Shown here: piece by piece, positions 1 through 33,662 of the stretch
Layout of the letters: each line of letters begins with the position of its first letter
Numbering within the stretch: position 1 is the first letter of the stretch
Source: a virus
Length of the DNA stretch: 33,662 bases
Direction: 5' to 3' (one strand)
IMG/VR virus record: IMGVR_UViG_3300049595_000705
Location: 1 to 33,662 of that record
The notes under the pieces: model-generated
Told to the model about the DNA's origin: nothing
The model's database searches: none
Seen by the model: only the letters and a program-made list of their open reading frames with translations
Made by a program: the position numbers and the translations under genes

Positions 1-709
1 TATTAAAAATGGGGAGTATATTTCAACTCCCCAATAATTATGCTAAGATAAACTTAACGATCTCGTCTGGGAACGCTACGTTTACACCCATTTTGAACTC
101 ACTTACAAAACGAACTTGATCAGCTTCTTTTGCGTAGAAAATTTCAAATTTCTCCTCTTCGTTCAACAAATCTGTTCCTAAGAACAAGTTAGATAAACGC
201 ATTGCGTAAACCTTGTTAGTTCCGTTCAAACCTGCAAGTGCTACAACTTTAATCATAGTACCTGGTAATACAAACTCGCTATCAGCTTTCACATCAATTG
301 AATAATGGAATTGATTTGCGTTCTTTAATGCAACTGTGTAAGTTCTAAAAACATCTTGACCACAGAAGATAGTCATATCATCAGCAGCTACTACTTTCGC
401 AGGGATTGCTTGATATACGCCATCAAAAATCTCAATAACATTTGCAGCAGTAATTGAGCTTAAAGGCGCACCTGAAATGAAAGTAGATGTGTTAGCAGCT
501 ACAACACCAGAAGCAGCACCGATTAATTTTACTAAGCCGTCAAACTTATTCAAGTTAACGTTTACGCTTGTAGTATCACCCTGCCATAAAGAAACTTCTA
601 ATTGCTCAGCGATTGTCTTTGCTTTCTTGTTAGCAAATTCTTGCTCAAAAGGAATAGAATCATACATTGATCCTGTTGGTAATGCTTTTTGTAAGTACTT
701 AGATTCTAA
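1..709. repeat. Left copy of the diverged end repeat (capsid 3' part plus terminator)
   Basis: Bases 1-709 align to 32954-33662 at a constant offset of 32953, with no indels and about 54 mismatches by hand count. The first 110 or so bases and the last 75 or so are identical, and the mismatches cluster between 305 and 350. An exact terminal repeat would be identical, so this looks like two alleles of one locus joined at the contig ends, or two paralogous capsid genes. Confidence 0.9.
4..32 (-). terminator. Intrinsic terminator after the major capsid gene
   Basis: Read on the minus strand, a 7-bp stem (GGGGAGT / ACTCCCC) with an 8-nt loop lies six bases past the capsid stop codon and is followed by ATTTTTAATA. 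The same hairpin, base for base, occurs at 32957-32985 after the second capsid copy. It should reduce read-through from the highly expressed capsid gene into the tail-tube gene that follows on the circular map. Confidence 0.8.
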
Positions 710-991
710 GTCTTTAGGACAAAGAGATTCGTTTACTTTAATTTTTCCAACTGTTACTGTTCTTTGAGTAAAAGTTGTAGAACCAGATGCGTTAAATCCG
801 CAAGATCCACCTGCTTGGAAGATCGCGTCTGTGTCCATAATGTTAATCGTTTCAGCAGACTTTACGCCTACCATAACGTTACCTGCGCTTTTAATTAAAG
901 CTGCGGTTTTTGCTCCTAATACAGAATCAGTTACCAATAAGGCTTCGTTTTGCTCTGTATAAGCTGCTAATGCGTCTACGTTAAATGCCAT
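38..991 (-). CDS. Major capsid protein
   Basis: A 317-residue protein, placed directly after the protease and scaffold genes and ahead of a strong terminator, as expected for the main shell subunit of a tailed-phage head. The size fits an HK97-fold capsid protein without a large N-terminal delta domain; a separate scaffold gene upstream fits that. I recognise it as the capsid-type protein seen in Bacteroidota phages by its general character (alanine-rich N-terminus, conserved C-terminal half) and by position, not from a named motif. The ATG at 991 follows an A-rich leader 12 bases after the scaffold stop. A second, 92% identical partial copy lies at the other end of the window (32991-33662). 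Differences are mostly silent, so both alleles look functional. Confidence 0.85.
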   Translation of the reverse strand: MAFNVDALAAYTEQNEALLVTDSVLGAKTAALIKSAGNVMVGVKSAETINIMDTDAIFQAGGSCGFNASGSTTFTQRTVTVGKIKVNESLCPKDLESKYLQKALPTGSMYDSIPFEQEFANKKAKTIAEQLEVSLWQGDTTSVNVNLNKFDGLVKLIGAASGVVAANTSTFISGAPLSSITAANVIEIFDGVYQAIPAKVVAADDMTIFCGQDVFRTYTVALKNANQFHYSIDVKADSEFVLPGTMIKVVALAGLNGTNKVYAMRLSNLFLGTDLLNEEEKFEIFYAKEADQVRFVSEFKMGVNVAFPDEIVKFILA

Positions 992-1003
992 TGTTATTAA
1001 TTT

Positions 1004-1612
1004 TTATTTGTTTAAAATTGCGTTTCTATATTTTTCTAATCTTTGTTCTTTAATGCCTTTTGTGTTTACAAACTCATTAAAGCTATTTGGCTTTTTGATA
1101 GGATCTTCGCTTGGCGTATTTGAAAGTGCTTCGATTAATTCAGCTACTTGTGCAAATCCTTGCTTAACCTTATTTTCTAAATCCAAAACTTTTGCGTCAG
1201 ATACATTCTTAGCTTCAATTAATTCAGCAATCTTTGCTTCAAATTGATCAGCCATTTCTTGAATCTTTTTATCTTTGTAATCTGCTCCCGCTTCAACTTC
1301 TGTGTCAACTTCTGGACTTGCTTCAACTACTTTAGTTTCAATAGCGGTAATTTTTCCGTTCTCATCTAAGGTAATTTCTGTTCCATCCATTAATTCGTGA
1401 TCCCCTGCTGGTGCTGGTTGCCCTTCAATAGTAACTAAACCGCCAACCTCTAAAGCTGAAATATCAACCTTAGTTCCGTCCATTAATGAATATTCTGCCA
1501 TTTCAACCTTAGTTTCCTCAACATTAGGTTCAATAACTTCATTTTCCTTAACAGGCGCAGCGTTGTCCTCAAACAAAGCCTTAATTTTTAAAATTGCTTC
1601 CTGTGCGTTCAT
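1004..1612 (-). CDS. Capsid scaffolding-like protein
   Basis: A 202-residue acidic protein, between the XkdF-like protease and the capsid gene, which is where tailed phages keep their scaffold. The N-terminal half contains two copies of a short unit: LMDGT at residues 43-47 and again at 74-78, each followed by a hydrophobic/acidic stretch, which suggests a small duplicated beta fold. Residues about 110-165 are a charged heptad-like coiled coil, and the C-terminal 40 residues are basic and could contact the capsid subunit. Scaffolds normally line the prohead interior and are removed by the protease encoded next door. The function is inferred from position and the coiled coil; the beta-unit duplication is seen directly. 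Confidence 0.6.
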   Translation of the reverse strand: MNAQEAILKIKALFEDNAAPVKENEVIEPNVEETKVEMAEYSLMDGTKVDISALEVGGLVTIEGQPAPAGDHELMDGTEITLDENGKITAIETKVVEASPEVDTEVEAGADYKDKKIQEMADQFEAKIAELIEAKNVSDAKVLDLENKVKQGFAQVAELIEALSNTPSEDPIKKPNSFNEFVNTKGIKEQRLEKYRNAILNK

Positions 1613-1649
1613 ACTTTTTTTATTATATAGTTAAAAAATAAATAGTTTA

Positions 1650-2243
1650 TCACTTAACTTGTGATAATATTTTTTTGATTGCATCAACCATAGACGCAAC
1701 CTTGTTTACTTCCTTAGGTTTGTAGGTAAATAACCCCTCTACGCTGAATCCCATAATATCCCCGTTTTTAACCTTAGACCAAGCCTCGTCATTATCCACG
1801 ATCATAGATCCAAACCAACTGCCAACAGGCGCATCTTCAAATCCTTTCATTGGCATAATACCGCGCGAAGGATCAGAAATAAAACTCTCAAATAATGTAA
1901 CTCCCTCAAATTGTTGCTTAGAATCGTGCATTAAATTAACATTGCTCTGGAATCCTTTTTTAAAAAACTTTTGAACAATCTTAAGAATAGTGTCCGCACT
2001 AAAAGCCACATAGTAATCGCCATAAGTAGAATCAGACCTAAAAATAGGCGTATCAGCCAACATAATAGCACCCGAAATAATACGGCGATCTTCATTTGTT
2101 ACCTCAAATTTTTGGGTTTTATTAAAAGCGTTCCAATTCTTTTGTATTGCAGGACGATCAACTAATGCAATGAAATCAACTTGTGAATCATCATCTATGC
2201 TATCCGTAATGTCCAACATATAAATAGGTATCTCTGTATTCAT
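1650..2243 (-). CDS. XkdF-like prohead serine protease
   Basis: A 197-residue protein resembling the XkdF-like putative phage serine protease family (Peptidase S78-type). Its position, before scaffold and capsid, fits a maturation protease that trims the prohead interior. Likely catalytic residues visible are His106 in NLMHD and Ser167 in MGFSVEG, the latter being the typical GFSxEG context of these proteases. The start of the protein (residues 5-30, with VDFIALVDRPAI) also matches the family pattern. The ATG at 2243 sits in an A/T-rich leader 34 bases after the tape-measure stop. The third catalytic residue was not assigned. Confidence 0.8.
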   Translation of the reverse strand: MNTEIPIYMLDITDSIDDDSQVDFIALVDRPAIQKNWNAFNKTQKFEVTNEDRRIISGAIMLADTPIFRSDSTYGDYYVAFSADTILKIVQKFFKKGFQSNVNLMHDSKQQFEGVTLFESFISDPSRGIMPMKGFEDAPVGSWFGSMIVDNDEAWSKVKNGDIMGFSVEGLFTYKPKEVNKVASMVDAIKKILSQVK

Positions 2244-2277
2244 ATCTTTAAATAGTTTATTTGTGAATATTTATCGT

Positions 2278-4083
2278 TTAACTAAATCTTGCTCTTTGTC
2301 TTATGGCTGCCATTCTTTGCTGATTGCCTGTTACGTCTGTCTCAATAACGTATGCCCTGACTGCTTGATTGCCTAAATCATTAATTGATTGTTGATTTAA
2401 TTGTGTCATTTGCGCACTTGGTAATTGTGGTAAAATAGGTGCTTGCGATGAAATTGAAGGAACAGAAGCACCGCCACCACCACCACCGCCAGGAACTTGA
2501 ACGGCAGTAATTGATTTAACTGCACGCATACCCGTTGCTATTATAGCAGCAACAGACGCGATTTTTTGAATAGTACCAAATGGCTCTGGCAATGTTGACT
2601 TAGCCCTTATAACTTCTGATGCACCAACATAAGTATTAATCAAAGCCCCTGCAACCCCTAAAGCCTTACCTGCTTTTGTTTGTTCACCCATTATTGATCC
2701 TAAAGCCATTGTAGCATCTGCAATATCGTAAGCTGCATTAACTCTTAAATTCCTTTCCTCCTCAGCCATTCTTTTCCTTGCATCTGCATTTGCTTGATCT
2801 ATTTCTAATATTTGAACTCCGTTTAGTTTTATATTAGCTATTGCTTTATTTTGTGCAATTAGGTTTTTATCTATTTCCTCATTTCTTTTTTTATCCCTTT
2901 CGTTTGCATCTTCTTGTTCAAATTTTCTTATGTCATCTATATATATTCCTTCGCTATTTTTACGAGCAAATTCTCTACGTTTTAGATAGTCTTCATAACT
3001 TTGCAATAAATCTTTTTGTAATTTTTCTGCTGCTTCTTTTTCCTCTTTTTCTTTTCTTTCTTGATATTCTTTTCTTTTTCTTGCTTCATTCTCTAATGCA
3101 GCTATTTGACCATCTGTATTTATTTTATTGATTTCTGCGCTGCTTTCCTCTGCTGCTTTTGCATCTTTTCCGTAAACTTCCTCGTAGTGTCTTTGATGTG
3201 ATTCTGCCCTTAATTTTCTATATTTTTGCTCAATTTCAAATATCTCTTGTTCACTTGCACCTTTAGCTTTAGCCCTTGCTATGTCTAATTTTTCTTGTCC
3301 TTCTAAAAATTTTTGTTCTGCATCTAAAGCTGTTTTAGCTCCGTCAGCTATTTGTTTATTTAATTTATTTTGTGCCTCCTCTGCCTTTGCCGCCGCACCT
3401 ACATAATTAGAAAACGCTTGTACTGCTAATCCTATTGCTACAATTAATAAACCAATACCCGAAGCAATTAATGCAACCCTAAATGCTTTCATAGCAGTCG
3501 TTGCGCCTGTTACTGCCGTTGTTGTTGCTACTGTTGCCGCACCTTGTTCTACTGTTGCAACTGTTTGAGCTTCTGTTGCAATAACATCAGCTTGTGTAAC
3601 TACAACCTTTTGACCTAATACAAAATTATATGCTTGTTGAAATAATGTTGTGCTTTTTATTATTGTTCCTAATCTTGCAAAGTCTTTAGCACTATCTTTT
3701 ATTGTTGATAATCCTTGCGATAATGCCATAGCTGACTGAACCTTTAATAACGCTTTTTGAACGTCCTCTGATTCTGCACCTAATAAACCCATTGCTCCCT
3801 GTACGGCACTTAATCCACCTGCAACAGTTGTTAAAACTCCAGAAAATGCTTGAAACTTTTTGCCAGGATCAAATAAGTCTGATGTTTCTCTTGCCTCTGA
3901 TATTTTATCCCTTAATTCAGCTACTTTTTGAGCAGCAGCAATCGCTTCCTTAGAATAATCACCATATAAAGTCTGGGCTTTTAGTAATTCGCCATTTGCT
4001 TCTTTAAGTTCTTTTCTTATTACGCCAATTACCTCTGAACCTTTTGTGTTTATATTTATATTTAGATCTAAATTCTGTGCCAT
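2278..4083 (-). CDS. Tail tape measure protein
   Basis: A 601-residue protein with the makeup of a tape measure: a helical N-terminus, a hydrophobic membrane-type segment at about 204-224, a long lysine/glutamate-rich coiled coil (roughly 235-400), a second alanine-rich helical part, and a glycine run near residue 540. By the usual relation of about 0.15 nm of tail per residue it would specify a short siphovirus tail near 90 nm. Its start overlaps the stop of the preceding tail gene (TAATG), implying translational coupling. Unusually for siphoviruses, two large tail proteins precede it and the head protease, scaffold and capsid genes follow it. Confidence 0.85.
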   Translation of the reverse strand: MAQNLDLNININTKGSEVIGVIRKELKEANGELLKAQTLYGDYSKEAIAAAQKVAELRDKISEARETSDLFDPGKKFQAFSGVLTTVAGGLSAVQGAMGLLGAESEDVQKALLKVQSAMALSQGLSTIKDSAKDFARLGTIIKSTTLFQQAYNFVLGQKVVVTQADVIATEAQTVATVEQGAATVATTTAVTGATTAMKAFRVALIASGIGLLIVAIGLAVQAFSNYVGAAAKAEEAQNKLNKQIADGAKTALDAEQKFLEGQEKLDIARAKAKGASEQEIFEIEQKYRKLRAESHQRHYEEVYGKDAKAAEESSAEINKINTDGQIAALENEARKRKEYQERKEKEEKEAAEKLQKDLLQSYEDYLKRREFARKNSEGIYIDDIRKFEQEDANERDKKRNEEIDKNLIAQNKAIANIKLNGVQILEIDQANADARKRMAEEERNLRVNAAYDIADATMALGSIMGEQTKAGKALGVAGALINTYVGASEVIRAKSTLPEPFGTIQKIASVAAIIATGMRAVKSITAVQVPGGGGGGGASVPSISSQAPILPQLPSAQMTQLNQQSINDLGNQAVRAYVIETDVTGNQQRMAAIRQRARFS

Positions 4084-6107
4084 TATAAAAAATATTTTGT
4101 TTCAATAACCTTTAATAAACTAATTTTCGTTGTCTTATATTCCATTGGATTAAACCCATCTACTTTATTCAACCTAAATAATACCCCATCAATCCAATAA
4201 AACTTACTAAAATCTAAGTTCATAATATCAACAGTATCTAATAAAGCAGAACAAGTTAATAGCTTTGAATCCTTACTTGTTATTTCCGCAATGTATTCAC
4301 TATGATAGGCGTTAAATAAATTTGTTGAAGGTAGTGATCCATTAAATTGTATTTCATTTGCAGCACCAAAATTAATATCGTTTGTAGCTGTAAATGGATC
4401 GTTTAAATGCCCTGCATAACCATAAGTAGTTAATGATTCAATAAGTGATGCATTGTTTAATAAATCCCAACTTGTCCTGTCTGTTATCTTTTTAGCTTGC
4501 ATTATTCTGATAACACAATCCATTGAATTTTCTTTTGTGTTATTATCAGATACCTTATAAATAGCAGGGTAAATTTTATCTGTGCCTGTCTTTTGATATA
4601 AAACACTTGGCGCAAATATTACACTTAGGCTTTCAGTTTCTTTGCTAAAATCAAATTCAGTATCAAAAATCCTATCTCCGTAGCTTTCGTTGTATTTTTT
4701 TCTATAATTCTCATTGTAAAAATCATTATCCTCTTTGAACTTATAATGAAAATATCTTGCGTTTAATTCACTCATTGGCTTGATACTCAAAGGCTTTGCC
4801 CTATCAATCTTATTAGACCAATCTATTGCCGTCGCGCTTGATTCAGGATAAAAGTTGATAAAAGGTTTTATCATTATTTTTTTATCATCCCAAGTATCTT
4901 CATAAACATACAAATTAAACATTTTTGTAATGCTTAAAAAAAAGTCTCTTTGATATATACCCTTAGGAATTGAATCTGCAATACTTATAGCATCCCCATA
5001 ATTTACAAGAACAGGAACAACAGAATCAGAAAAAAAAGATACTTCGCCCTCTGTTATTGTAACCGGCGGATCAGTCTTATTTGATGCCGCATTGGTAAAT
5101 CTAAAACTAATTGCATCATTAGCATTCATAGATATTGTAAACTCCCCAGCTACTCCAAAACTTCCACTAAAAAATTCTGAATAAACACTAACCCCATTTT
5201 TTAAAATAAAAAAAATACCATCAGTTGAATCCCCTGAAAATGAATAGTTTATTTTTAAATTTATAGTTGTAGTTCCGGTATAAGTAAAAACCCTATTGCC
5301 TGAACTTGGAACTAATCCAGATCCTGTTACTGTTGTAAAAGGATATAATGCCGATCCTAAAACTGTAAGGCTTGTTGTCCTTGTCGCAACAGGAAAATCA
5401 CTTGTTGTTTTAGTAAAACTCTTTTGATTCTGTGGGATTATAAGCCTATTAAATAGTTCCTGATCTCCTGGTAATAAATCTAATGTATATGTATAATCCG
5501 TGCCTTCAAATATTTTTTCTATATATTCAGCAACATATAAAGCTGGTCTAAATGCTTCAACTTCAAAATTTATTTTGTCTGTGCTTACATTTCCATAGTC
5601 AATCAATGGATAAAAATAACCTGATCCTGCAATAGTATCCCAACTTGCTTTTATATTTGTTACATTATAATCGTGATCGTATTCGCTAAAATCTAAGTCT
5701 GTTAATCTATTGTTTCCTAATGTAGTTATAAATCCGCCTAATTCCCCAAACACAGAACATTGATATTCAATAGTTTTATCATCAATTACAATTTCTAATA
5801 TCCTTAAAGTTCCTTTAAATATTTGGATTTTATCAATAAATATTTTACAATTAGCTTGTTTTGAAGCGTTAAAATTGTAATTAACATTTGGTAAACTATT
5901 ATCCGTATCATTTGCATTTGCTAAATCAAATATGAAGCCAAATATTTTATTGTTTGTAGCCGTACCCGTTATGGATATTGTTTTACTATAATTTGTGTTT
6001 TTACTACCGAAGTCAGTAATATCATCAATCGTATAAGTAAACTCGGTACTAATATCTTGTACTAAATCAAGTCTAAAATCTTCTATGTATATTTCTGTAC
6101 TAATCAT
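4083..6107 (-). CDS. Large tail/baseplate protein, possibly hub-like
   Basis: A 674-residue beta-rich protein immediately upstream of the tape measure gene, with TAATG stop-start overlaps on both sides. The N-terminal segment (about 20-60) has a pattern FGSKNTNYSKTI that I associate with structural proteins of Bacteroidota phages and prophages. No enzyme motif is visible. Placement beside the tape measure and the 409-residue tail gene suggests a distal tail or baseplate hub component. The precise role is inference; it could equally be a receptor-binding scaffold at the tail tip. Confidence 0.6.
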   Translation of the reverse strand: MISTEIYIEDFRLDLVQDISTEFTYTIDDITDFGSKNTNYSKTISITGTATNNKIFGFIFDLANANDTDNSLPNVNYNFNASKQANCKIFIDKIQIFKGTLRILEIVIDDKTIEYQCSVFGELGGFITTLGNNRLTDLDFSEYDHDYNVTNIKASWDTIAGSGYFYPLIDYGNVSTDKINFEVEAFRPALYVAEYIEKIFEGTDYTYTLDLLPGDQELFNRLIIPQNQKSFTKTTSDFPVATRTTSLTVLGSALYPFTTVTGSGLVPSSGNRVFTYTGTTTINLKINYSFSGDSTDGIFFILKNGVSVYSEFFSGSFGVAGEFTISMNANDAISFRFTNAASNKTDPPVTITEGEVSFFSDSVVPVLVNYGDAISIADSIPKGIYQRDFFLSITKMFNLYVYEDTWDDKKIMIKPFINFYPESSATAIDWSNKIDRAKPLSIKPMSELNARYFHYKFKEDNDFYNENYRKKYNESYGDRIFDTEFDFSKETESLSVIFAPSVLYQKTGTDKIYPAIYKVSDNNTKENSMDCVIRIMQAKKITDRTSWDLLNNASLIESLTTYGYAGHLNDPFTATNDINFGAANEIQFNGSLPSTNLFNAYHSEYIAEITSKDSKLLTCSALLDTVDIMNLDFSKFYWIDGVLFRLNKVDGFNPMEYKTTKISLLKVIETKYFL

Positions 6108-12720: not shown

Positions 12721-13416
12721 TTATGCTTCTACCGCTTGTCTTGATGCCAAAGTTACTTTATTACCCTTATACATCCCAGCTCCAAGTTCATCTATTTTTG
12801 AGAAAGGTAATATAGGTACTGTTATTTTGCAAGTTTTGTCTAATAAATAAATATATCTAATTTGAAACCCATCTAATTTTACACCTCCATTATCTTTTAT
12901 CCAACTTGTTCCACTTTTACCATTACTTTCTTTTGTTCTATGTGCCGAACTTGTTAAACTACAAACTACTTCGCCATTAGGTAATTGATATGTACTTGTA
13001 TTTTTACTAACTCCTATTAATTGAAATCCACTTGCTCTGTAAATTGTTCCATCACCACAAAGGTTTGCATCACTAAAACTTAATATCCACTTAATATGAG
13101 GAGCATTTTTTTTAATAAGTTTAATAGTAATTGCTATGCATCTGCTTTCACTATATTTTGGTAAATATTCATCAAATGCCATTCTATTAAGTTCAATTAC
13201 TTCATTCCATTTTGTATTTTCTACATAATGTATAACTTTTGCTTTTACCATTGGACTGCCATAACTTAATACTCCGTGCAATTTACCATCTAAAAAGCAA
13301 CCAAAATGTAACTTACTATTAGGCACAACCTTGCCTGAATAATGATTTAATTTTATAAATTCATTAGCAATCTTGCTCGGTATAACTTTTATTAAGATTT
13401 CCTTTGCTCTGCCCAT
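12721..13416 (-). CDS. mom: Mom-like DNA adenine hypermodification enzyme
   Basis: A 231-residue protein closely resembling phage Mu Mom (231-241 residues), which converts adenine in DNA to N6-carbamoylmethyl-adenine and shields DNA from restriction; Mom belongs to the GNAT superfamily. Recognisable Mom-family blocks are LHFGCF (36-41), SYGSPM (51-56), the ELNRMAFDE run (75-83), ESRCIAIT (90-97), HIKWILSFSD (107-116) and CGDGTIYRASGF (120-131). It is encoded after, and overlapping by 25 bases, the ParB-like gene, a partnership seen in other phages. Unlike Mu, no com-like translational activator is evident. The match is strong across the whole core; substrate identity is inferred. Confidence 0.85.
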   Translation of the reverse strand: MGRAKEILIKVIPSKIANEFIKLNHYSGKVVPNSKLHFGCFLDGKLHGVLSYGSPMVKAKVIHYVENTKWNEVIELNRMAFDEYLPKYSESRCIAITIKLIKKNAPHIKWILSFSDANLCGDGTIYRASGFQLIGVSKNTSTYQLPNGEVVCSLTSSAHRTKESNGKSGTSWIKDNGGVKLDGFQIRYIYLLDKTCKITVPILPFSKIDELGAGMYKGNKVTLASRQAVEA

Positions 13417-21068: not shown

Positions 21069-21620
21069 CTATTGGTTTTGATTAGCTAATATAATTCTAT
21101 AAGCCTTGTCGTATTGCTCATTTGTAGTAAAGGCACTTATCTTAATTGCTTGTTTGCTTTTAAGGCTTTCATCCCAGATAGTGTTTTCTAAAAGAGTAAT
21201 TAACTTCATACGCTTTTCCTCGCCAACCTCGTCTTTATGCTCATTCGTGGCATCCGCATCCTTTGTGTCATCTATTGCAAACAAACCATTTAGGGCGTAT
21301 TTTCGGGCGTATGAACTCGCTGATCCTGTAATCTGTGCTGCGTCCATTCCTTTCTTTATTTCTTCTTCGCGCGCCCAACCGTGCGACATTGCAACAGTTT
21401 CAATTGTTTCACCGTCAATTAAAAATGCCGTGCTTTTAATATATACCCTGTCCCCAATTTGTAAAACTTCGTCGCTAATATTTAAAAAGCAATTATATTT
21501 GTGAATAATTGGTTTAACGGCTTCAATAATGTCTTCGGCGCTTCTGTACCTGTAATTGCCGAACTTATTTACTTGACCCTTTGGCGCTTTTAATTCTGCC
21601 TGAATTTTTACTAAGTTCAT
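21069..21620 (-). CDS. ERF-family single-strand annealing protein
   Basis: A 183-residue protein from the ATG at 21620 (MNLVKIQAELKAPKGQ). It has the ERF family core: YRYRSAEDIIEAVKPIIHK (about 24-42), then the strand-turn LIDGETIETVAMSHGW, and the glycine/alanine helix ITGSASSYARKYALNGLFAIDD (about 96-117) that is the strongest family signature. The C-terminal 60 residues are charged. ERF proteins anneal complementary single strands and promote circularisation or recombination-dependent replication. The AAAAAACC leader is three bases before the start codon. Confidence 0.9.
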   Translation of the reverse strand: MNLVKIQAELKAPKGQVNKFGNYRYRSAEDIIEAVKPIIHKYNCFLNISDEVLQIGDRVYIKSTAFLIDGETIETVAMSHGWAREEEIKKGMDAAQITGSASSYARKYALNGLFAIDDTKDADATNEHKDEVGEEKRMKLITLLENTIWDESLKSKQAIKISAFTTNEQYDKAYRIILANQNQ

Positions 21621-21636
21621 ATTGGTTTTTTTAAGT

Positions 21637-21891
21637 TTAATACATATCCCCGTACTCCTCAAATTTTTCTGTCCATTCAGACATAGGGGTAAAAGGTATT
21701 ATTGGAAATGGGTTTTTAGGTTGCTGCAATAAATGTGGATAGTAAACTGCCTTAAAATCTTTTAAATTTTTACGCGCATTTTTTAACAATTCATATCTAT
21801 TTTGAGCATTTGATTTATCGCTTATATCAAATAGCCATTCATAATAACTAACCTTATCCCTTAAATTTGATAGTTGGTGTAATGTATTCAT
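21637..21891 (-). CDS. Small unknown early protein
   Basis: An 84-residue protein: a helical first half with basic residues (LSNLRDKVSYYEWLF, then ELLKNARKNLKDFKAVYYPHL) and a proline-rich middle (QPKNPFPIIPFTPM), ending with acidic WTEKFEEYGDMY. Placed second in the early operon and 16 bases from the ERF gene. No family was recognised. The helix-proline-acid layout fits a small adaptor or inhibitor, but nothing in the sequence shows a target. Confidence 0.6.
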   Translation of the reverse strand: MNTLHQLSNLRDKVSYYEWLFDISDKSNAQNRYELLKNARKNLKDFKAVYYPHLLQQPKNPFPIIPFTPMSEWTEKFEEYGDMY

Positions 21892-25677: not shown

Positions 25678-28600
25678 TATAATAATTTTTTTATAAGTTC
25701 TTCTAATTGTGCAACCTTATCTTCTAAGTAAGCAATCTTAGCAGTATGTACTTGACTATAAGATAATGATAAAAAACCATCTTCTCCTTCATTAACTGCA
25801 CTTGGTAATATTTCTTGTACATCTTGTGCGTAGTAGCCTAATTCTTTTCTACTATTTTTAAGATACATTCTTGCAGCAACATTTTCAATTCCTTTTGGTT
25901 GTTCATAATCTTTTACAAGAATCTTTAATCTACTATCCGAAGTATCAAAGAAACCGCCTGTTGAACGAACAGTCCCAGTTACATCAAGTTTATACCCACT
26001 ATCTGTTGTTGTTCCTATTAATACATTACCCCCCGATGTAATTCTCATTCGTTCGCCTGTACTTCCAGCATTTCTTGTTTTGAAAACCATATAGAAACTA
26101 TTTCCAGAAGGAGCAGCCATTTCAATACCACCACCATTAACAAGTCCGCTACCATACAGCCAATTAATACCGCTTGTTACATCCAGAGAGCCTCCGTTAG
26201 CTATATATAAAAATGGATTTGTGTCATTTCCTATTTGAACGTTACCAGATTGTGTGATTGATAATACAGAAGTTCCTGTATATGGATTACCACCTATTGA
26301 TGTGCTTACTTTAAAACTTAAAGTTCCATAGTTATCATATCCATTTATTAATGCCCAGTTTCTACCAGCAGAACCATAGTTATCTGTAAATTGTAAATAA
26401 GGAATTGGACCTGCATTGCTATTCCCTGTTATATAAGAAACACCCGTTGCCGTTACACTACTTGAGAATCTTCCTGTACCATTAACATCTAACTTAAATC
26501 CTGCATCGGTAGTTGTGCCTATTGCTAAATTTCCTGTACTAAACAAGGTCATTGCTTGGGTAAATGTTATAGCGTTACCTGCCGTTCCTGAAGGTGCTTG
26601 ATACCAAATGTGTGCGCCATCATATTGACCATAACTTGTAGCAAATGAACTATCTATATATCTATAATTCGTGTTATCAAAATAAGCATTAGTTCCAAAA
26701 TAAACATCCCTACTTGTAGAAGATAACCAAAAACTTTTAATATTTTGTATTGCTTTAACATTAGAACCCCACGCACTCGGTGTAACTCCTAATCCTAAAT
26801 TGCCAGAAGATAATGTCATTCTTGTAGCTACACCTAATTCTACAAATCTAATTGCATCTGTATAACCAATAGAACTATTTGTAGTGCTGAAGCGAATATC
26901 ATCTCTAAATTGAGCAGCCCCATTTACATCTAATTTATATGAAGGACTTACACCTATTCCAATATTAGAACTCACTTCTTGTATTACACTATCTCCTATT
27001 GTACTTGCACCCGTAAACTTAGGTAGGTAGTTTGTAGTACCTGTTCCTGTTACAGGGTTAGTTAAAGCGTTCTGCTTGTTGTTAAACGTAGTCCAATCAG
27101 TACTTGATAATAAACCATTTTGTGAACCACTTGCAGTTGCAATAGCTAATGTAATTGTACCACTTGTAGTGATAGGAGTTGAACCAATAGTTACTCCGCT
27201 TGTTGCAGAAGATAATCCTACGCTTGTAACTGTTCCTACACTATAAGTTCTATTTGCACTTAAATCAAATGAAGTTCCGTTAATAGTTATAGTTCTACTT
27301 GTTGGAACGTACCCACTTAAATCAGGTGCGTAGTTAGGGATATTAAACACCCCTGTTGTTGAGTTATAAGTTGCAGCACCACTTGTTCCCGTTGTTGTTA
27401 AGCTAATAGATGCACGAGCCAAAGCATCTGTATATTGAGTAATTGTTGAAGCTATCGTAAATGAAGGATAAGTTCCACTAATTGATATCCCTGCACCTGC
27501 CGTTAAAGAAACAGTTTGGTCTGGAGCAGAGTTAGTAATTACACCTGTTGTAGAGTTGTAGCTTATTCCTGTGCCTCCACTTAAAGAAGTTAAGGTTATA
27601 AAGTTTGAACCATTTGTGATTTGATTATTATTGGTAGGTATTGTTATTACCCCTGTTGTGCTATTATAAGCACCACTACCTGCCGTAAAACTTAAAGCTG
27701 CTCTTGCTCTTGCATCGGTAAAGTAAAGGTTTGTATTTTCAGTTACTTGACTTGTATTATAATCGCCACTAACCGCTACAACTGCACCTGTTCTACCAAA
27801 TACACTTGTAACCGCATCCGTATTATCATCAGTCCAAGAAGCAGATATTGTACCACCATCTTGTTGATTAAGCGTTAAAGTCTTAGTTGTTGTTCCTGTA
27901 ACCGCTGCACTTATGATTGAATCATTGTAAGCAGTATTAAATTTAACCCAATCTAAGTTATCCAAATAACCATCAACCGAAGCAGATGCAGCTGGGATTG
28001 ATATTGTATTAGATGTGTTAACTAAAGGTGCAGTAAATGATAATGCAGCTTGTTTCGCATTAAACACACTCCAATCGCTTGAACTCAACTTACCTGTATT
28101 TGTAGCCGAAGCAACAGGCAGATTAAAAGTATGCGTAGCTGTTGAACTTGATATGTTAAAATCCGTTCCGCTTGTGCCTGTCGCTAAAAATTGTACTTGT
28201 CTTGTTAAGTTATTTAACGAAGTTAATCCCTTAGAAAATGTTGTAACTACTTGGCACAAATGATTGTTCTCTGTGTGTAAAGTAACTTCTCTTGTATCAA
28301 CATTTGCATATATTCTAATTGCTATTCTATCGGTTATCGCTAAAACAGTTTGAGCTACAGGGATAGCAAAATAATAAGGACTTAAAGTTGTACCACTTGT
28401 TAAATATTCAGGTACGCTTTGGCTACTTCCTATCAAAGTAAAAGTAGTGCCGTCATATTTATAAACCTCTGCATATACATAAGGATTATGAGCATTAGAG
28501 TTTACGCTAAAATAAAACTCACAATTAAAGTTACCCGCAGGTACTTCTAATAAAGCAGGGTCATTAGCATCTGTTAAATAACTTGCTATGTATCCATCTG

Positions 28601-29024
28601 CCGTAATAGTAATATCAGTTCCTGCACCTGCAATTGGGTCTTTGCTTAATTCTCTATAAGCAACACCGCCAATAGTACCTTGTGAAACACTTGAATTTAG
28701 ATAGTAAGAAACCGAACTTCCGCCACCTGTTGATGTTGGGAAATCTGCTAATGCGCCATCCCCTCTAACATATTGAGTAGCATCCCCTGCAAATCCTATG
28801 TTAATAGTTCCTGCCGTTGTAATTGGGCTTCCTGTAATTGTTAAAGCATCGCCTGTTTCTGTAACTGCTACGCTTGAAACTGTACCCGTTGTAGCAAATA
28901 AATTAGCTATCTGTAATAAAGAAATCTTTTTACTTACACCTGTAATCGGATCGCCTATAATTGTTAAATCAGAAGTTTGCGGTGCAACGCTTGTCGCTAA
29001 CTGATTAATTTTTTTTGATTCCAT
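25677..29024 (-). CDS. Tail fibre with S74 intramolecular chaperone
   Basis: A 1115-residue receptor-binding fibre, starting at the ATG at 29024 (MESKKINQLA) that overlaps the previous stop. The N-terminal part includes a short domain (YYLNSSVSQGTIGGVAY) of the kind seen in phage baseplate/fibre proteins. The middle has several repeats, such as NSTTGVI/NSTTGVF and KLDVNG units, of trimeric fibre type. The C-terminus, from about residue 1029 (SDSRLKILVKDYE), is a Peptidase S74 chaperone: SDxRxK is the autocleavage Ser-Lys dyad, and LGYYAQDVQE (about 1063-1072) the second conserved block. The chaperone trimerises and then cuts itself off. The repeats are the part most likely to vary with host range. 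Confidence 0.85.
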   Translation of the reverse strand: MESKKINQLATSVAPQTSDLTIIGDPITGVSKKISLLQIANLFATTGTVSSVAVTETGDALTITGSPITTAGTINIGFAGDATQYVRGDGALADFPTSTGGGSSVSYYLNSSVSQGTIGGVAYRELSKDPIAGAGTDITITADGYIASYLTDANDPALLEVPAGNFNCEFYFSVNSNAHNPYVYAEVYKYDGTTFTLIGSSQSVPEYLTSGTTLSPYYFAIPVAQTVLAITDRIAIRIYANVDTREVTLHTENNHLCQVVTTFSKGLTSLNNLTRQVQFLATGTSGTDFNISSSTATHTFNLPVASATNTGKLSSSDWSVFNAKQAALSFTAPLVNTSNTISIPAASASVDGYLDNLDWVKFNTAYNDSIISAAVTGTTTKTLTLNQQDGGTISASWTDDNTDAVTSVFGRTGAVVAVSGDYNTSQVTENTNLYFTDARARAALSFTAGSGAYNSTTGVITIPTNNNQITNGSNFITLTSLSGGTGISYNSTTGVITNSAPDQTVSLTAGAGISISGTYPSFTIASTITQYTDALARASISLTTTGTSGAATYNSTTGVFNIPNYAPDLSGYVPTSRTITINGTSFDLSANRTYSVGTVTSVGLSSATSGVTIGSTPITTSGTITLAIATASGSQNGLLSSTDWTTFNNKQNALTNPVTGTGTTNYLPKFTGASTIGDSVIQEVSSNIGIGVSPSYKLDVNGAAQFRDDIRFSTTNSSIGYTDAIRFVELGVATRMTLSSGNLGLGVTPSAWGSNVKAIQNIKSFWLSSTSRDVYFGTNAYFDNTNYRYIDSSFATSYGQYDGAHIWYQAPSGTAGNAITFTQAMTLFSTGNLAIGTTTDAGFKLDVNGTGRFSSSVTATGVSYITGNSNAGPIPYLQFTDNYGSAGRNWALINGYDNYGTLSFKVSTSIGGNPYTGTSVLSITQSGNVQIGNDTNPFLYIANGGSLDVTSGINWLYGSGLVNGGGIEMAAPSGNSFYMVFKTRNAGSTGERMRITSGGNVLIGTTTDSGYKLDVTGTVRSTGGFFDTSDSRLKILVKDYEQPKGIENVAARMYLKNSRKELGYYAQDVQEILPSAVNEGEDGFLSLSYSQVHTAKIAYLEDKVAQLEELIKKLL

Positions 29025-29473
29025 TAATAAGTATAATTTGTAGGCACCTGGCACCTGTTGTTTATAAATGGTAAATTCAAAGTAATATCACACTTGACGC
29101 CTGCTAAAAAATCAGGATCAGATTCCGTGAAATACGTCATTGGAATATTATCCCCGCAAGTCCAAGTAACTACTCCATAATCTAAGGGATATCTTAATTG
29201 AGCAATAAAATCTTGTGCTACCAATGTTTGATCCGATAAAACTTCTGTTTCGTTTGTTTCCTCTGATAGCATCCTATCCATAAAGTAAAAACTGAAATTG
29301 AAATTTATTTCTTTAGCACCTATTGTAGCACCTGTTAACGTAAAAAACATAGCAGGATATGTAACCTCGCCATTGCTTAAACGTTCCCAGACATCCCCAA
29401 AGTTAACAAAATTAATTTGTTCGTGGTCGTTTCCTATCTTTGTCAGTTCGTTGACTATTTGGTTTAATGTCAT
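29024..29473 (-). CDS. Neck/tail completion-like protein
   Basis: A 149-residue beta-rich protein, with VNFVNFGDVWERL (about 20-32) and a conserved-looking FYFMDRMLSE (52-61), and an ending LPFINNRCQVP. It lies after the portal and connector genes and before the tail fibre, where siphoviruses keep head-tail completion proteins. Its stop overlaps the fibre start (TAATG). The assignment is from gene order and general type only. Confidence 0.5.
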   Translation of the reverse strand: MTLNQIVNELTKIGNDHEQINFVNFGDVWERLSNGEVTYPAMFFTLTGATIGAKEINFNFSFYFMDRMLSEETNETEVLSDQTLVAQDFIAQLRYPLDYGVVTWTCGDNIPMTYFTESDPDFLAGVKCDITLNLPFINNRCQVPTNYTY

Positions 29474-29540
29474 TCTTTTTTGCTTTTTCCAAATAAACTT
29501 TTAGCTTATTTTGGTTTTTTATAGTTACTTGTTTACTCAT
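29412..29540 (-). CDS. Small basic protein overlapping its neighbours
   Basis: A 42-residue protein, MSKQVTIKNQNKLKVYL, very basic with a Lys/Arg-rich end (DKDRKRPRTN). It begins one base after the connector stop (TAATATG) and its last 62 bases lie in a different frame of the next gene. The start placement supports translation, but no family is recognised, and the overlap lowers confidence. Confidence 0.4.
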   Translation of the reverse strand: MSKQVTIKNQNKLKVYLEKAKKNDIKPNSQRTDKDRKRPRTN

Positions 29541-29541
29541 A

Positions 29542-30138
29542 TTAGCAGCATCCAATATTACCCTGATACCTTTCCTCAAAAGTTCTTTTACGTTTGCCCT
29601 CGTAATCATCATCATTGCAACAAGCATCCCCTAAGTACATTGAAACTGTGTAACCTTCATTATCAGGCTTGATTGAATCAATGCCGCTACCAAAGTTTAA
29701 GTAGTTAGGATATAAAGCATTGTTTTGTTTTAGGTATTTAATTAACCTTTGCTTGTAAAATTCTGCTCTGGCTTTGTATCTGTTAGCCACGTCAATCATA
29801 TCTTGCATTGAAGGACTTTCTTGATTCTCGCCCGTCTTTCTTAAAAGCCCTTTATTGTAAAACTGAAAAGACAAACCCTGTGGTAACTCCGACATTACAA
29901 AATAGATTAATGTATCTACAATGTAATCATCCAATAAAGTCGTTTGTAAATTTGTGTATGTATTGGTATCAACCGCCGTTTGTAATTCATTGTAAAGTGC
30001 CGATCCTAAAGCAGGCAAAATATACATATCTTGCGCCGTCTTGATTTCAGGCAATACTAATTTTTCATCTACGTTTGCGTGCAATCCTGTTCTGTCCTTA
30101 ATCGACTGAACTGATATAAATAAAGTATTCTTGCTCAT
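29542..30138 (-). CDS. Head-tail connector-like protein
   Basis: A 198-residue protein from the ATG at 30138 (MSKNTLFISVQSIKDRTGL), which overlaps the portal stop by one base (TAATG). A first domain has VLPEIKTAQDMYILPALGS (about 26-44), the helical pattern of connector/adaptor proteins found in Bacteroidota phages. The end is Cys- and Asp-rich (ACCNDDDYEG, GNIGCC), possibly a metal site. It should form the ring between portal and tail. The function is inferred from order and pattern. Confidence 0.6.
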   Translation of the reverse strand: MSKNTLFISVQSIKDRTGLHANVDEKLVLPEIKTAQDMYILPALGSALYNELQTAVDTNTYTNLQTTLLDDYIVDTLIYFVMSELPQGLSFQFYNKGLLRKTGENQESPSMQDMIDVANRYKARAEFYKQRLIKYLKQNNALYPNYLNFGSGIDSIKPDNEGYTVSMYLGDACCNDDDYEGKRKRTFEERYQGNIGCC

Positions 30139-31937
30139 TATTTTTTTCTTGTTACTATGTTTGAAACCCATTGATGTCTGCAACTTGGCTCGTGAGTATT
30201 AGTACCAGGCTTTGTGTACCAACCGCCTTTACGATCCCATACCGAATAACCTAATCTTGCACTCATTAACTCTATTTCGCTACGGCTATAAACCTTATTT
30301 GCGTCTAATAAAGCCACGCAAAACGGACGGCTTGTATCCTTATCTGCATTACTAAAACCCGCTTTCCATTCATAAGAATATCTAATCAGCAACTCCGTTG
30401 TCTGTGGCTTGATTTTTTCTAAAATATCCTTTAAAGGCTCTGTCAAAGTATGCTCTGTAATTACGTTTTCATCAATCCCTGTACCTATTGTGTATTGCTT
30501 AGGTTGGATATGCCCATCTTCAATTAATTTTTTAATTACTTGATTGATGGTATCTACGTTTTGATCTAAAGTAGTCGCTAAAACCTCAGGTGTTATTCTT
30601 TTATCCTTAGCCATCAAATCAAGCACATTGGCTTGTAATTGGTTTACCTCTGCAAATAACTGATATTCAGAATCGTCATTAAAGCGCGTTCTTGACTTCC
30701 AAATATTGTATGAAGCCTTATCCTCACCAAACTCAAAAAACACGCTAAAATCGTCCTTAAATTGCGCAGATTGCACAACTGTAACCGCTTCCTCTGGTGC
30801 TTGATATTTAGTCATATCAATACCCGCCTTTTCAAGTAACCATTCCTTAGGTGCAATTTCCTTTAAAAGATTCTCTGTAAACTCAAATCCGATAGGCTCG
30901 GTTGGGATAATATGTAATTCTGCGTCCTCGATACCTCTGTACTTAAATAGCATATTAAATACACTTTCAAGGTGCATTTGCTTACTATTAACGTAAGTAT
31001 TTTTAAAGATTTCATATCCGTCGCGCATTTCAGAACGGCTACCTAATTTACCAGCCTCTGCAATACCAAAGATTGATGGCGTTGTAATCTGATGCCCTGA
31101 AAATATATTAGTTTGAATTAAAGAATCCACACGACCGAAGTCCTCTTTTGTTATATCAGAAGTGCCTAAATCATCAACGATAGGTTTTCTTGCGCTATCA
31201 TTTACAAAAGCTAAAATGAACTTCTTACCATCTGATCCGCTAAATCTATTCGTAAAACGTTTTTCAATATTACGCTTTTCATCATCCGAAGGCTCGCCAT
31301 TAGGTAGGGTAATAAGTTTACTTGCAGAAAACCCTGTCTGTGCATTACCTAAAACGTGCTTAGATATTTCAATATCTGATTCTATGTAATTAAGCGCACC
31401 GAAATAACCTGGCAAAGAATAGTAACCCATATTTGGGCGATATTCTTTTATATAAAGAATCTGCTTGCCGTATGGATTAGCAGGGTTAAAAGCAGGGTAA
31501 ACCTCCGCTTTTTCTGCCCTATCAGCCCAATCTTCTTTATACCAAAATTGTGTATTGTCTTTATTAGTACGAACCTTAGTATAATCGCAATGCCAGATTT
31601 CGCTTAACTGACCTGCAACTGACCAAATGATTTCTAAATAATAACCTCCAAATAATTCAGCATCCAAAGATACTTTTCTTGTAAGATCCTCAAGGCTTTC
31701 CATTCTATTGACTTTTTCAATAAAAGGTTTTGCCTGCTCGCTACCTGTCCAACCATTTGCAGTAATATAATGTACCTTGCTTTTTATAATAGCATTATGC
31801 TTAGCTGACTTATTAAAAAGTTCAACCAAGTAATTTGGGTAATCGTTGCGATCGCCATACTGAATATACCCTTCACCTTTTTTTTCTTTAAATTCAGGCT
31901 GCTTGGCTTCCGCAAATGTTAGTACTCTTAAATCCAT
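30138..31937 (-). CDS. Portal protein
   Basis: A 599-residue protein. It has the length and layout of a portal: an N-terminal region with NYLVELFNKSAKHNAI (about 34-49), a central segment with IFSGHQITTPSIFGI (about 278-292) that is conserved in portals, the long helical stem (NTYVNSKQMHLESVFNML), and a C-terminal helical domain. The last 30 residues include WYTKPGTNTHEPSCRHQW, an ending with Cys/His seen in some Bacteroidota phage portals. The portal forms the dodecameric ring through which DNA enters. Both ends overlap neighbours by TAATG. Confidence 0.85.
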   Translation of the reverse strand: MDLRVLTFAEAKQPEFKEKKGEGYIQYGDRNDYPNYLVELFNKSAKHNAIIKSKVHYITANGWTGSEQAKPFIEKVNRMESLEDLTRKVSLDAELFGGYYLEIIWSVAGQLSEIWHCDYTKVRTNKDNTQFWYKEDWADRAEKAEVYPAFNPANPYGKQILYIKEYRPNMGYYSLPGYFGALNYIESDIEISKHVLGNAQTGFSASKLITLPNGEPSDDEKRNIEKRFTNRFSGSDGKKFILAFVNDSARKPIVDDLGTSDITKEDFGRVDSLIQTNIFSGHQITTPSIFGIAEAGKLGSRSEMRDGYEIFKNTYVNSKQMHLESVFNMLFKYRGIEDAELHIIPTEPIGFEFTENLLKEIAPKEWLLEKAGIDMTKYQAPEEAVTVVQSAQFKDDFSVFFEFGEDKASYNIWKSRTRFNDDSEYQLFAEVNQLQANVLDLMAKDKRITPEVLATTLDQNVDTINQVIKKLIEDGHIQPKQYTIGTGIDENVITEHTLTEPLKDILEKIKPQTTELLIRYSYEWKAGFSNADKDTSRPFCVALLDANKVYSRSEIELMSARLGYSVWDRKGGWYTKPGTNTHEPSCRHQWVSNIVTRKK

Positions 31938-32311
31938 TATTGTCTTATTTTATAAGTGTCCGTTGTTGTATATTCCGTGAAATTGAAAGGCGTTCCGACT
32001 AACTCCATAATTCCTGATTCTAATAAATTTAAACCAGCAGGATTTAGGTTAGATGTACTTGTCTGTTCGTATATATCGTAATCATATTGACCATTTAAAG
32101 CAGTACTAAAATTAGTATTTGTAACAATACTAAACTCATTGTATCTGTCCTTAAATTGGCTTATATCTGTGTTATTTAACATAACAAATTTAACCTCTGT
32201 ATTTGCGCTTCTATTAGTAAATACAAATAAATAGTTAGGATTCGTTAATAGTTGCTTTTCAGTTAAAGTCAAAATAATATTTTGGGTTTGTCCTTTTGTT
32301 AACCTAATCAT
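31937..32311 (-). CDS. Unknown small virion-region protein
   Basis: A 124-residue beta-rich protein that begins MIRLTKGQTQNIILTL, with YLFVFTNRSAN and YDYDIYEQTSTSN later. It is encoded between the tail tube and the portal, and I associate it with a small Bacteroidota phage family of unknown function. Coupled to the portal by a TAATG overlap. It may be a head decoration or joining protein; nothing more can be read. Confidence 0.55.
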   Translation of the reverse strand: MIRLTKGQTQNIILTLTEKQLLTNPNYLFVFTNRSANTEVKFVMLNNTDISQFKDRYNEFSIVTNTNFSTALNGQYDYDIYEQTSTSNLNPAGLNLLESGIMELVGTPFNFTEYTTTDTYKIRQ

Positions 32312-32355
32312 ATTACTATATAGCTAAAAAGCTAATTTGTTGCATATCCTACAAT

Positions 32356-32388
32356 AAAAAACCGCCGAACCAATTAAGGAACGGCGGC
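32356..32388 (-). terminator. Intrinsic terminator after the tail-tube gene
   Basis: On the minus strand CCGCCG / CGGCGG forms a 6-bp GC stem with an inner CC/GG pairing and is followed by a run of six T. It is 24 bases past the stop of the 173-residue gene, so the tube gene is bracketed by terminators on both sides. Confidence 0.85.
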
Positions 32389-32412
32389 AAACCTATAAAC
32401 CTATGAAAAAAC

Positions 32413-32934
32413 TTAAGCTCCTGCGGTTGTCAATACAGAATAAACTGCTTGTGCAACGCTTGGTGCTAATTCTGCTTCTGATCCTGTAAAGGTTAAAGTG
32501 AATCCACTTCTATCGCCTTGTGTAGTACCCGTGCCAGCAGTACCAGCAGTTAAATCTAATCCTCTTGTTTTACCAAGATACCAATATACGCCATTTGAAT
32601 CTTTTACTACTGCAATTAAAGTATTTTGTGCAAGTAATAAAATTTCGTTTCTTGTAGCGGTTTGTAATTTATTTAATACAACCATTAATTCCTGTGCGTA
32701 AAATACTGTTCCATTTTGTACGTTTGTAGTAATAGTTTGATTCATCATAGATGTATCCTTTACTTGCTCGTATTTATAGAATCTTTTACCTGGTGCCTTT
32801 GTTAATGTTGTAATCACTCCGCTTGCTTCGGTTGTTGCAGTTACGTTGGCTGCTTCTATGAAATACACTTCCGTAACACCGCCTAAGCTATCTCGGCAGT
32901 CTAAAGTGTATCCTGATGTTAATGCGCACGGCAT
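32413..32934 (-). CDS. Probable major tail tube protein
   Basis: A 173-residue protein, next to the capsid gene and flanked by terminators, as for a very abundant structural protein. It is beta-rich: CRDSLGGVTEVYFIEAANV (13-31), then KRFYKYEQVKDTSM, VVLNKLQTATRNEILLLAQN (a helix) and LTFTGSEAELAPSV at the end. The DCRDSLGGVTEVY start and FTGSE end are features I associate with Bacteroidota phage tail-tube proteins. The assignment is by position, size and fold character. It lies on the other side of the capsid terminator from the capsid gene. Confidence 0.65.
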   Translation of the reverse strand: MPCALTSGYTLDCRDSLGGVTEVYFIEAANVTATTEASGVITTLTKAPGKRFYKYEQVKDTSMMNQTITTNVQNGTVFYAQELMVVLNKLQTATRNEILLLAQNTLIAVVKDSNGVYWYLGKTRGLDLTAGTAGTGTTQGDRSGFTLTFTGSEAELAPSVAQAVYSVLTTAGA

Positions 32935-32956
32935 AATATTAAATTTAAAATTTTAT

Positions 32957-32985
32957 TAAAAATGGGGAGTATATTTCAACTCCCC
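32957..32985 (-). terminator. Intrinsic terminator after the second capsid copy
   Basis: Exact duplicate of the terminator at the left end: a 7-bp GGGGAGT / ACTCCCC stem with an 8-nt loop then a T-rich tail. It stands between the capsid stop (32991) and the tail-tube start (32934). Confidence 0.8.
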
Positions 32986-32990
32986 AATAA

Positions 32991-33662
32991 TTATGCTAAG
33001 ATAAACTTAACGATCTCGTCTGGGAACGCTACGTTTACACCCATTTTGAACTCAGATACGAAACGAACTTGATCAGCTTCTTTTGCATAGAAGATTTCAA
33101 ATTTTTCCTCCTCGTTCAACAAATCTGTTCCTAAGAACAAGTTAGATAAACGCATTGCGTAAACCTTGTTAGTTCCGTTTAAACCTGCAAGTGCTACAAC
33201 TTTAATCATAGTACCTGGCAATACGAACTCGCTATCAGCTTTTACGTCAATTTGATAAAAGAATGAACCGCTATTTTTAAGTGCGATTGTGTAAGTTCTG
33301 AATAAATCTTGACCGCAGAAGATAGTCATATCATCAGCAGCTACCACTTTAGCAGGAATTGCTTGATATACACCATCAAAAATGCTGATTACATTCGCAG
33401 CAGTAATTGAGCTTAAAGGCGCACCTGAAATGAAAGTTGAAGCGTTAGCAGCTACAACACCAGAAGCAGCACCAATCAATTTAACTAAGCCGTCAAACTT
33501 ATTTAAGTTAACGTTTACGCTTGTAGTATCGCCCTGCCATAAAGAAACTTCTAATTGTTCAGCGATTGTCTTTGCTTTCTTATTAGAAAATTCTTGCTCA
33601 AAAGGAATAGAATCATACATTGATCCTGTTGGTAATGCTTTTTGTAAGTACTTAGATTCTAA
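32991..33662 (-). CDS. Major capsid protein, second allele, partial at window edge
   Basis: 223 residues of the C-terminal part of a capsid protein; the frame is open through the window end at 33662. It matches the other copy closely, with about 10 amino acid changes in the 209 residues from Met-Tyr-Asp to the end. These include Asn-Gln to Gly-Ser and His to Phe within one short segment (ALKNANQFHYS versus ALKNSGSFFYQ). Nearly all other base changes are silent. On a circular map this copy and that at 38-991 would be one locus seen in two versions. Confidence 0.85.
   Translation of the reverse strand, partial: LESKYLQKALPTGSMYDSIPFEQEFSNKKAKTIAEQLEVSLWQGDTTSVNVNLNKFDGLVKLIGAASGVVAANASTFISGAPLSSITAANVISIFDGVYQAIPAKVVAADDMTIFCGQDLFRTYTIALKNSGSFFYQIDVKADSEFVLPGTMIKVVALAGLNGTNKVYAMRLSNLFLGTDLLNEEEKFEIFYAKEADQVRFVSEFKMGVNVAFPDEIVKFILA

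Follow-up and report, generated by a model that had tools for sequence, protein, structure and literature searches.

The capsid gene and its neighbours

The window analysed here, 33,662 bp in length, is a complete virus record whose coding capacity lies nearly all on the minus strand. Close to its first position is a complete capsid-like open reading frame encoding 317 amino acids (positions 38-991, minus strand), whose product matches PHROG 11320 (5e-18) and, at 5e-9, the head-and-packaging family PHROG 1623 ("virion structural protein"). Directly upstream on the same strand is a scaffold-like gene (1004-1612), named only from its position, which is the same in relatives (family searches with it gave no match), and beyond that a prohead protease of the Peptidase_S78_2 / XkdF-like type (1650-2243, minus strand; PF14550, 1.7e-13). 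The capsid frame thus comes after a protease and a scaffold-sized gene, in a cluster with the portal gene, with the terminase further off; this is the position expected of a major capsid protein, which is the best reading of the 317-residue product. The gene next after the capsid in every relative encodes 173 residues and lies near the opposite end of the window (32413-32934, minus strand). The first-pass annotation had called it the tail tube, a name that finds no support, as the product belongs to PHROG 19091, a family of unknown function.

Structure prediction is no more than suggestive as regards an HK97 fold. Two AlphaFold2 models of the capsid have mean pLDDT values of 32 and 39, and a Foldseek search with the second of these low-confidence models returns phage capsids, SU10 first, at E-values of 0.006 or worse (none at 0.001 or below). 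One relative has a sub-threshold match to SU10_MCP, and a sequence search of the PDB with the capsid gave no match. The family is represented in hundreds of environmental-metagenome contigs, yet the capsid finds no match among 50,697 annotated phage records.

Two versions of the gene at the ends of the window

When its first 3 kb are searched against the whole window by BLASTN, a single further match appears, in which positions 1-709 align with positions 32954-33662 in the same direct orientation at 92.8% identity (E = 0). This is similarity far beyond chance, and it confirms the earlier report of end blocks that align without gaps at about 92%. The copies differ at 54 columns in the gap-free direct register; an alternative alignment places two compensating one-base gaps inside the hot spot described below. 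The terminal copy at 1-709 (minus strand, allele A) covers the last part of the complete capsid gene and the 37 bp that follow it. BLASTN and codon comparison show that its counterpart at 32954-33662 (minus strand, allele B) comprises capsid codons 95-317 plus the same 37 bp, and that it is truncated by the end of the contig, leaving a 5'-truncated frame of 223 residues (32991-33662, minus strand) that is open at the contig end and has 10 amino acid differences from allele A.

The two copies are identical over a flank of 75 bp on one side, as first described, and over 101 bp on the gene's 3' side, where about 110 had been given; these unequal lengths fit no single k-mer size. Between the flanks lies a divergent tract of 533 bp. 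Among the 41 changed codons 31 are silent, which bears out the impression of mostly silent substitution, and the other 10 alter an amino acid (codons 120, 168, 187, 214, 220, 225, 226, 227, 229 and 231). Seven of these 10 fall in the 18 codons from 214 to 231 (P about 5e-5 under random placement), so the hot spot noted near the motif ALKNANQFHYS is real. The NG86 values of dN/dS are 0.42/1.0 within codons 214-231 and 0.014/0.24 outside them. The segment, taken as codons 213-231 or so, is of the KNANQFHYS type in allele A (300-353, minus strand; codons 213-230) and of the KNSGSFFYQ type in allele B (33253-33306, minus strand), as read from the alignment of the copies.

Independent contigs join the ends through one capsid gene

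A linear genome with two capsid copies predicts that nothing should join the ends of the window. Two independent IMG/VR contigs, L003 (3300020530_000111) and L004 (3300002835_005044), do join them. The gene order of L003 is protease, scaffold, one capsid, the 173-residue gene, a gene for 124 residues, and portal. Its capsid gene is identical to allele A at 954 of 954 nucleotides, its scaffold side agrees with window positions 992-2370 at 1,373 of 1,379 (99.6%), and past window position 1 it continues as window position 32953 downwards, matching 27994-32953 at 4,960 of 4,960 nucleotides. L004 contains the same single-capsid junction over 4.1 kb and is likewise 100% identical to allele A, including terminal copy A. 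Outside the capsid gene the two contigs are 99.6-100% identical to the window. An exact scan of viral contigs for 32 bases of the allele B hot spot found no match, and hence no contig carrying the whole of allele B between the same flanks.

Copy number and cut points among relatives

Scaffold, capsid and the 173-residue gene occur together in 340 of 374 related loci (218 distinct by sequence). A second capsid is present in none of the 340, and the gap from the capsid to the 173-residue gene is 53-71 bp throughout. Among 33 long related contigs (31-38 kb), 32 have a single capsid, and the remaining one (G013) has one capsid split over its own ends, which overlap within that gene at 94.9% over 175 bp.

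The ends of these long relatives fall at many places on the map. Exact end repeats of 55, 99, 121, 123 or 127 bp are found in 13 of the 33, and one contig (G018) has 126 identical end bases with two extra bases outside them. Eight have imperfect end overlaps, 95-99% identical over 114 to about 1,270 bp, and apart from the capsid the sites are the portal (G014, G021), a long tail gene (G029), the terminase (G032), a DnaA-like gene (G006), the 173-residue gene (G031) and the junction of genes for 149 and 1125 residues (G003). The end overlap of G027 is ambiguous, and 10 of the 33 have none. Relatives are therefore cut at many genes, with exact or imperfect overlaps, and the window is one case of a recurrent artefact in which the capsid is not special. 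The proposal that this phage maps circularly gains support from the same data.

Two related records are composite in other ways. G008 (locus L080/L081; IMGVR 3300043436_001856), a record of 63,203 bp whose ends carry an exact 90-bp repeat, is a strain-chimera dimer in which two phage genomes, 89% identical, are joined head to tail. A 4.5-kb record, L139, has at 1563-4459 two versions (86% identical) of the region downstream of the capsid, joined in inverted orientation over 871 bp, and is either another chimaera or a hairpin artefact.

Alternative explanations

If the capsid gene had truly been duplicated in tandem within one genome, and the copies had since diverged, the presence of both in one record would be accounted for, and the predominance of silent differences is what two maintained genes would show. 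Against this, nothing but the contig end cuts copy B short, L003 and L004 represent a near-identical genome that has one copy, and none of the 340 relatives has two capsids. Two copies between the scaffold and the next gene were not found, and the duplication is rejected as very improbable. Still less credible is physical terminal redundancy of packaged linear DNA, as direct terminal repeats or headful ends. Terminal repeats are common in tailed phages, and known phages offer cases of ERF-type recombinases working at such termini. However, both repeats of a single molecule derive from the same sequence and remain identical, and the two copies seen here have 54 differences. Nor is there a fixed end among the relatives, whose cut points are distributed around the whole map. 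The clustering of amino acid changes at codons 214-231 would speak for a diversity-generating retroelement, or for programmed mutagenesis of another kind, as the source of the second version. This is just as hard to credit, because the changes are mostly silent and spread over 533 bp, the B type is a standing type present in other phages, no reverse transcriptase is found among the window proteins scanned, and BLASTN with the first 3 kb finds no template repeat in the window beyond the copy at the contig end.

One circle, two alleles

We are left in very little doubt that the terminal copies are two strain alleles of one capsid gene, meeting at the closing point of a circular map, and that they represent an ordinary assembly artefact with no second capsid. 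L003 and L004, which join both ends through a single capsid, uphold the earlier suggestion that two strains of one circularly mapping phage formed a bubble in the assembly. On this reading the phage is a tailed one with a circularly mapping genome of about 32,953 bp and a single capsid gene, and the window is one full turn of that genome. Two co-existing strains would carry different versions of the gene, with common sequence on either side of the 533-bp tract. The assembly would have begun part-way through the tract on one allele, gone round the map once and ended on the other; because the alleles at the opposite contig ends differ, the resulting 709-bp overlap would have been left unmerged.

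We infer that alleles A and B come from strains of the same sample. L003 agrees with the window on both sides of the gene, so in this part of the genome the two strains are probably near-identical outside the capsid. To judge from these comparisons, allele B would then be a recombinant that has acquired a capsid segment, and it looks like one whose differences are concentrated in a short stretch of the gene. An ERF-type recombinase is encoded in the window (21069-21662, minus strand; PF04404, 1.3e-38) as a possible means of allele exchange, and makes exchange of a capsid segment plausible.

Hot-spot types across the capsid family

The two forms of the hot spot are both widespread in this phage family. 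At codons 223-231, 119 distinct capsids divide into 64 of the A type and 55 of the B type (KNSGSF[N/F]YQ), numbers that are not frequencies, the capsids having been sampled by similarity to A and to B. A capsid tree built without codons 206-240 puts both window alleles in a group with SH-aLRT support of 96, whose seven rows include two of the A type and five of the B type, and requires at least 4-5 switches of hot-spot type. Over codons 215-229 allele B has a mean identity of 94% to other FF-type capsids and at most 71% to any A-type capsid, while the regions flanking the hot spot are 87-100% identical between the two window alleles in most comparison windows. At the level of sequence, this pattern fits exchange of short segments between capsids, with convergence as the alternative. 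A larger interpretation, which we offer as speculation and consider rather unlikely, is that lineages of the phage population exchange two standing types of codons 214-231 or thereabouts (KNANQFHYS or KNSGSF[F/N]YQ) through recombination of short tracts, and that selection maintains both types, as might happen where a host or a decorating factor recognises the surface in question. The two alleles of the window would then record one such exchange.

Relation to known assembly outcomes

End repeats of k-mer length are the usual outcome of assembling a circular template, according to the authors of CheckV, who also describe assemblers that concatenate copies of one genome (PMC8116208). The exact repeats of 55, 99, 121, 123 or 127 bp in the relatives are k-mer closures of this kind. 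The window resembles the "DTR contigs" of CheckV (PMC8116208) in being one turn of the map with ends that repeat each other. A DTR as CheckV defines it, however, is an identical repeat, 20 bp or longer, at the extreme ends of the contig. The overlap in the window is imperfect and falls outside that definition; at 709 bp and 92.8% identity it is missed by an exact-repeat test, and the record passes as linear. In having two haplotypes with common flanks in one assembly, the window is also like the strain bubbles, or bulges, of de Bruijn graphs described in the PenguiN paper (PMC11443906). In the usual bubble one branch is dropped, whereas here the circle closes at the bubble itself, so that a single contig retains the two branches.

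The practical point is a small one: imperfect end overlaps conceal complete circular phage genomes from exact-repeat tests. With imperfect overlaps in 8 of 33 long contigs against exact repeats in 13, a tolerant comparison of contig ends would recover complete genomes, with phased allele pairs as a by-product. On the two-allele reading the capsid duplication is nonexistent, and the biology that remains is a small population-genetic footnote.

Additional observations on the phage

Three related loci lie inside bins named Chitinophagaceae or Chitinophaga pinensis (L094, DOMR01000145.1; L096, DOMR01000068.1; and L095), a hint of the host, though the binning may be wrong. The window also encodes a Mom-family DNA modification protein (12721-13416, minus strand; PF25680, 3.6e-51), which adjoins a ParB-like gene and may provide protection against host restriction.
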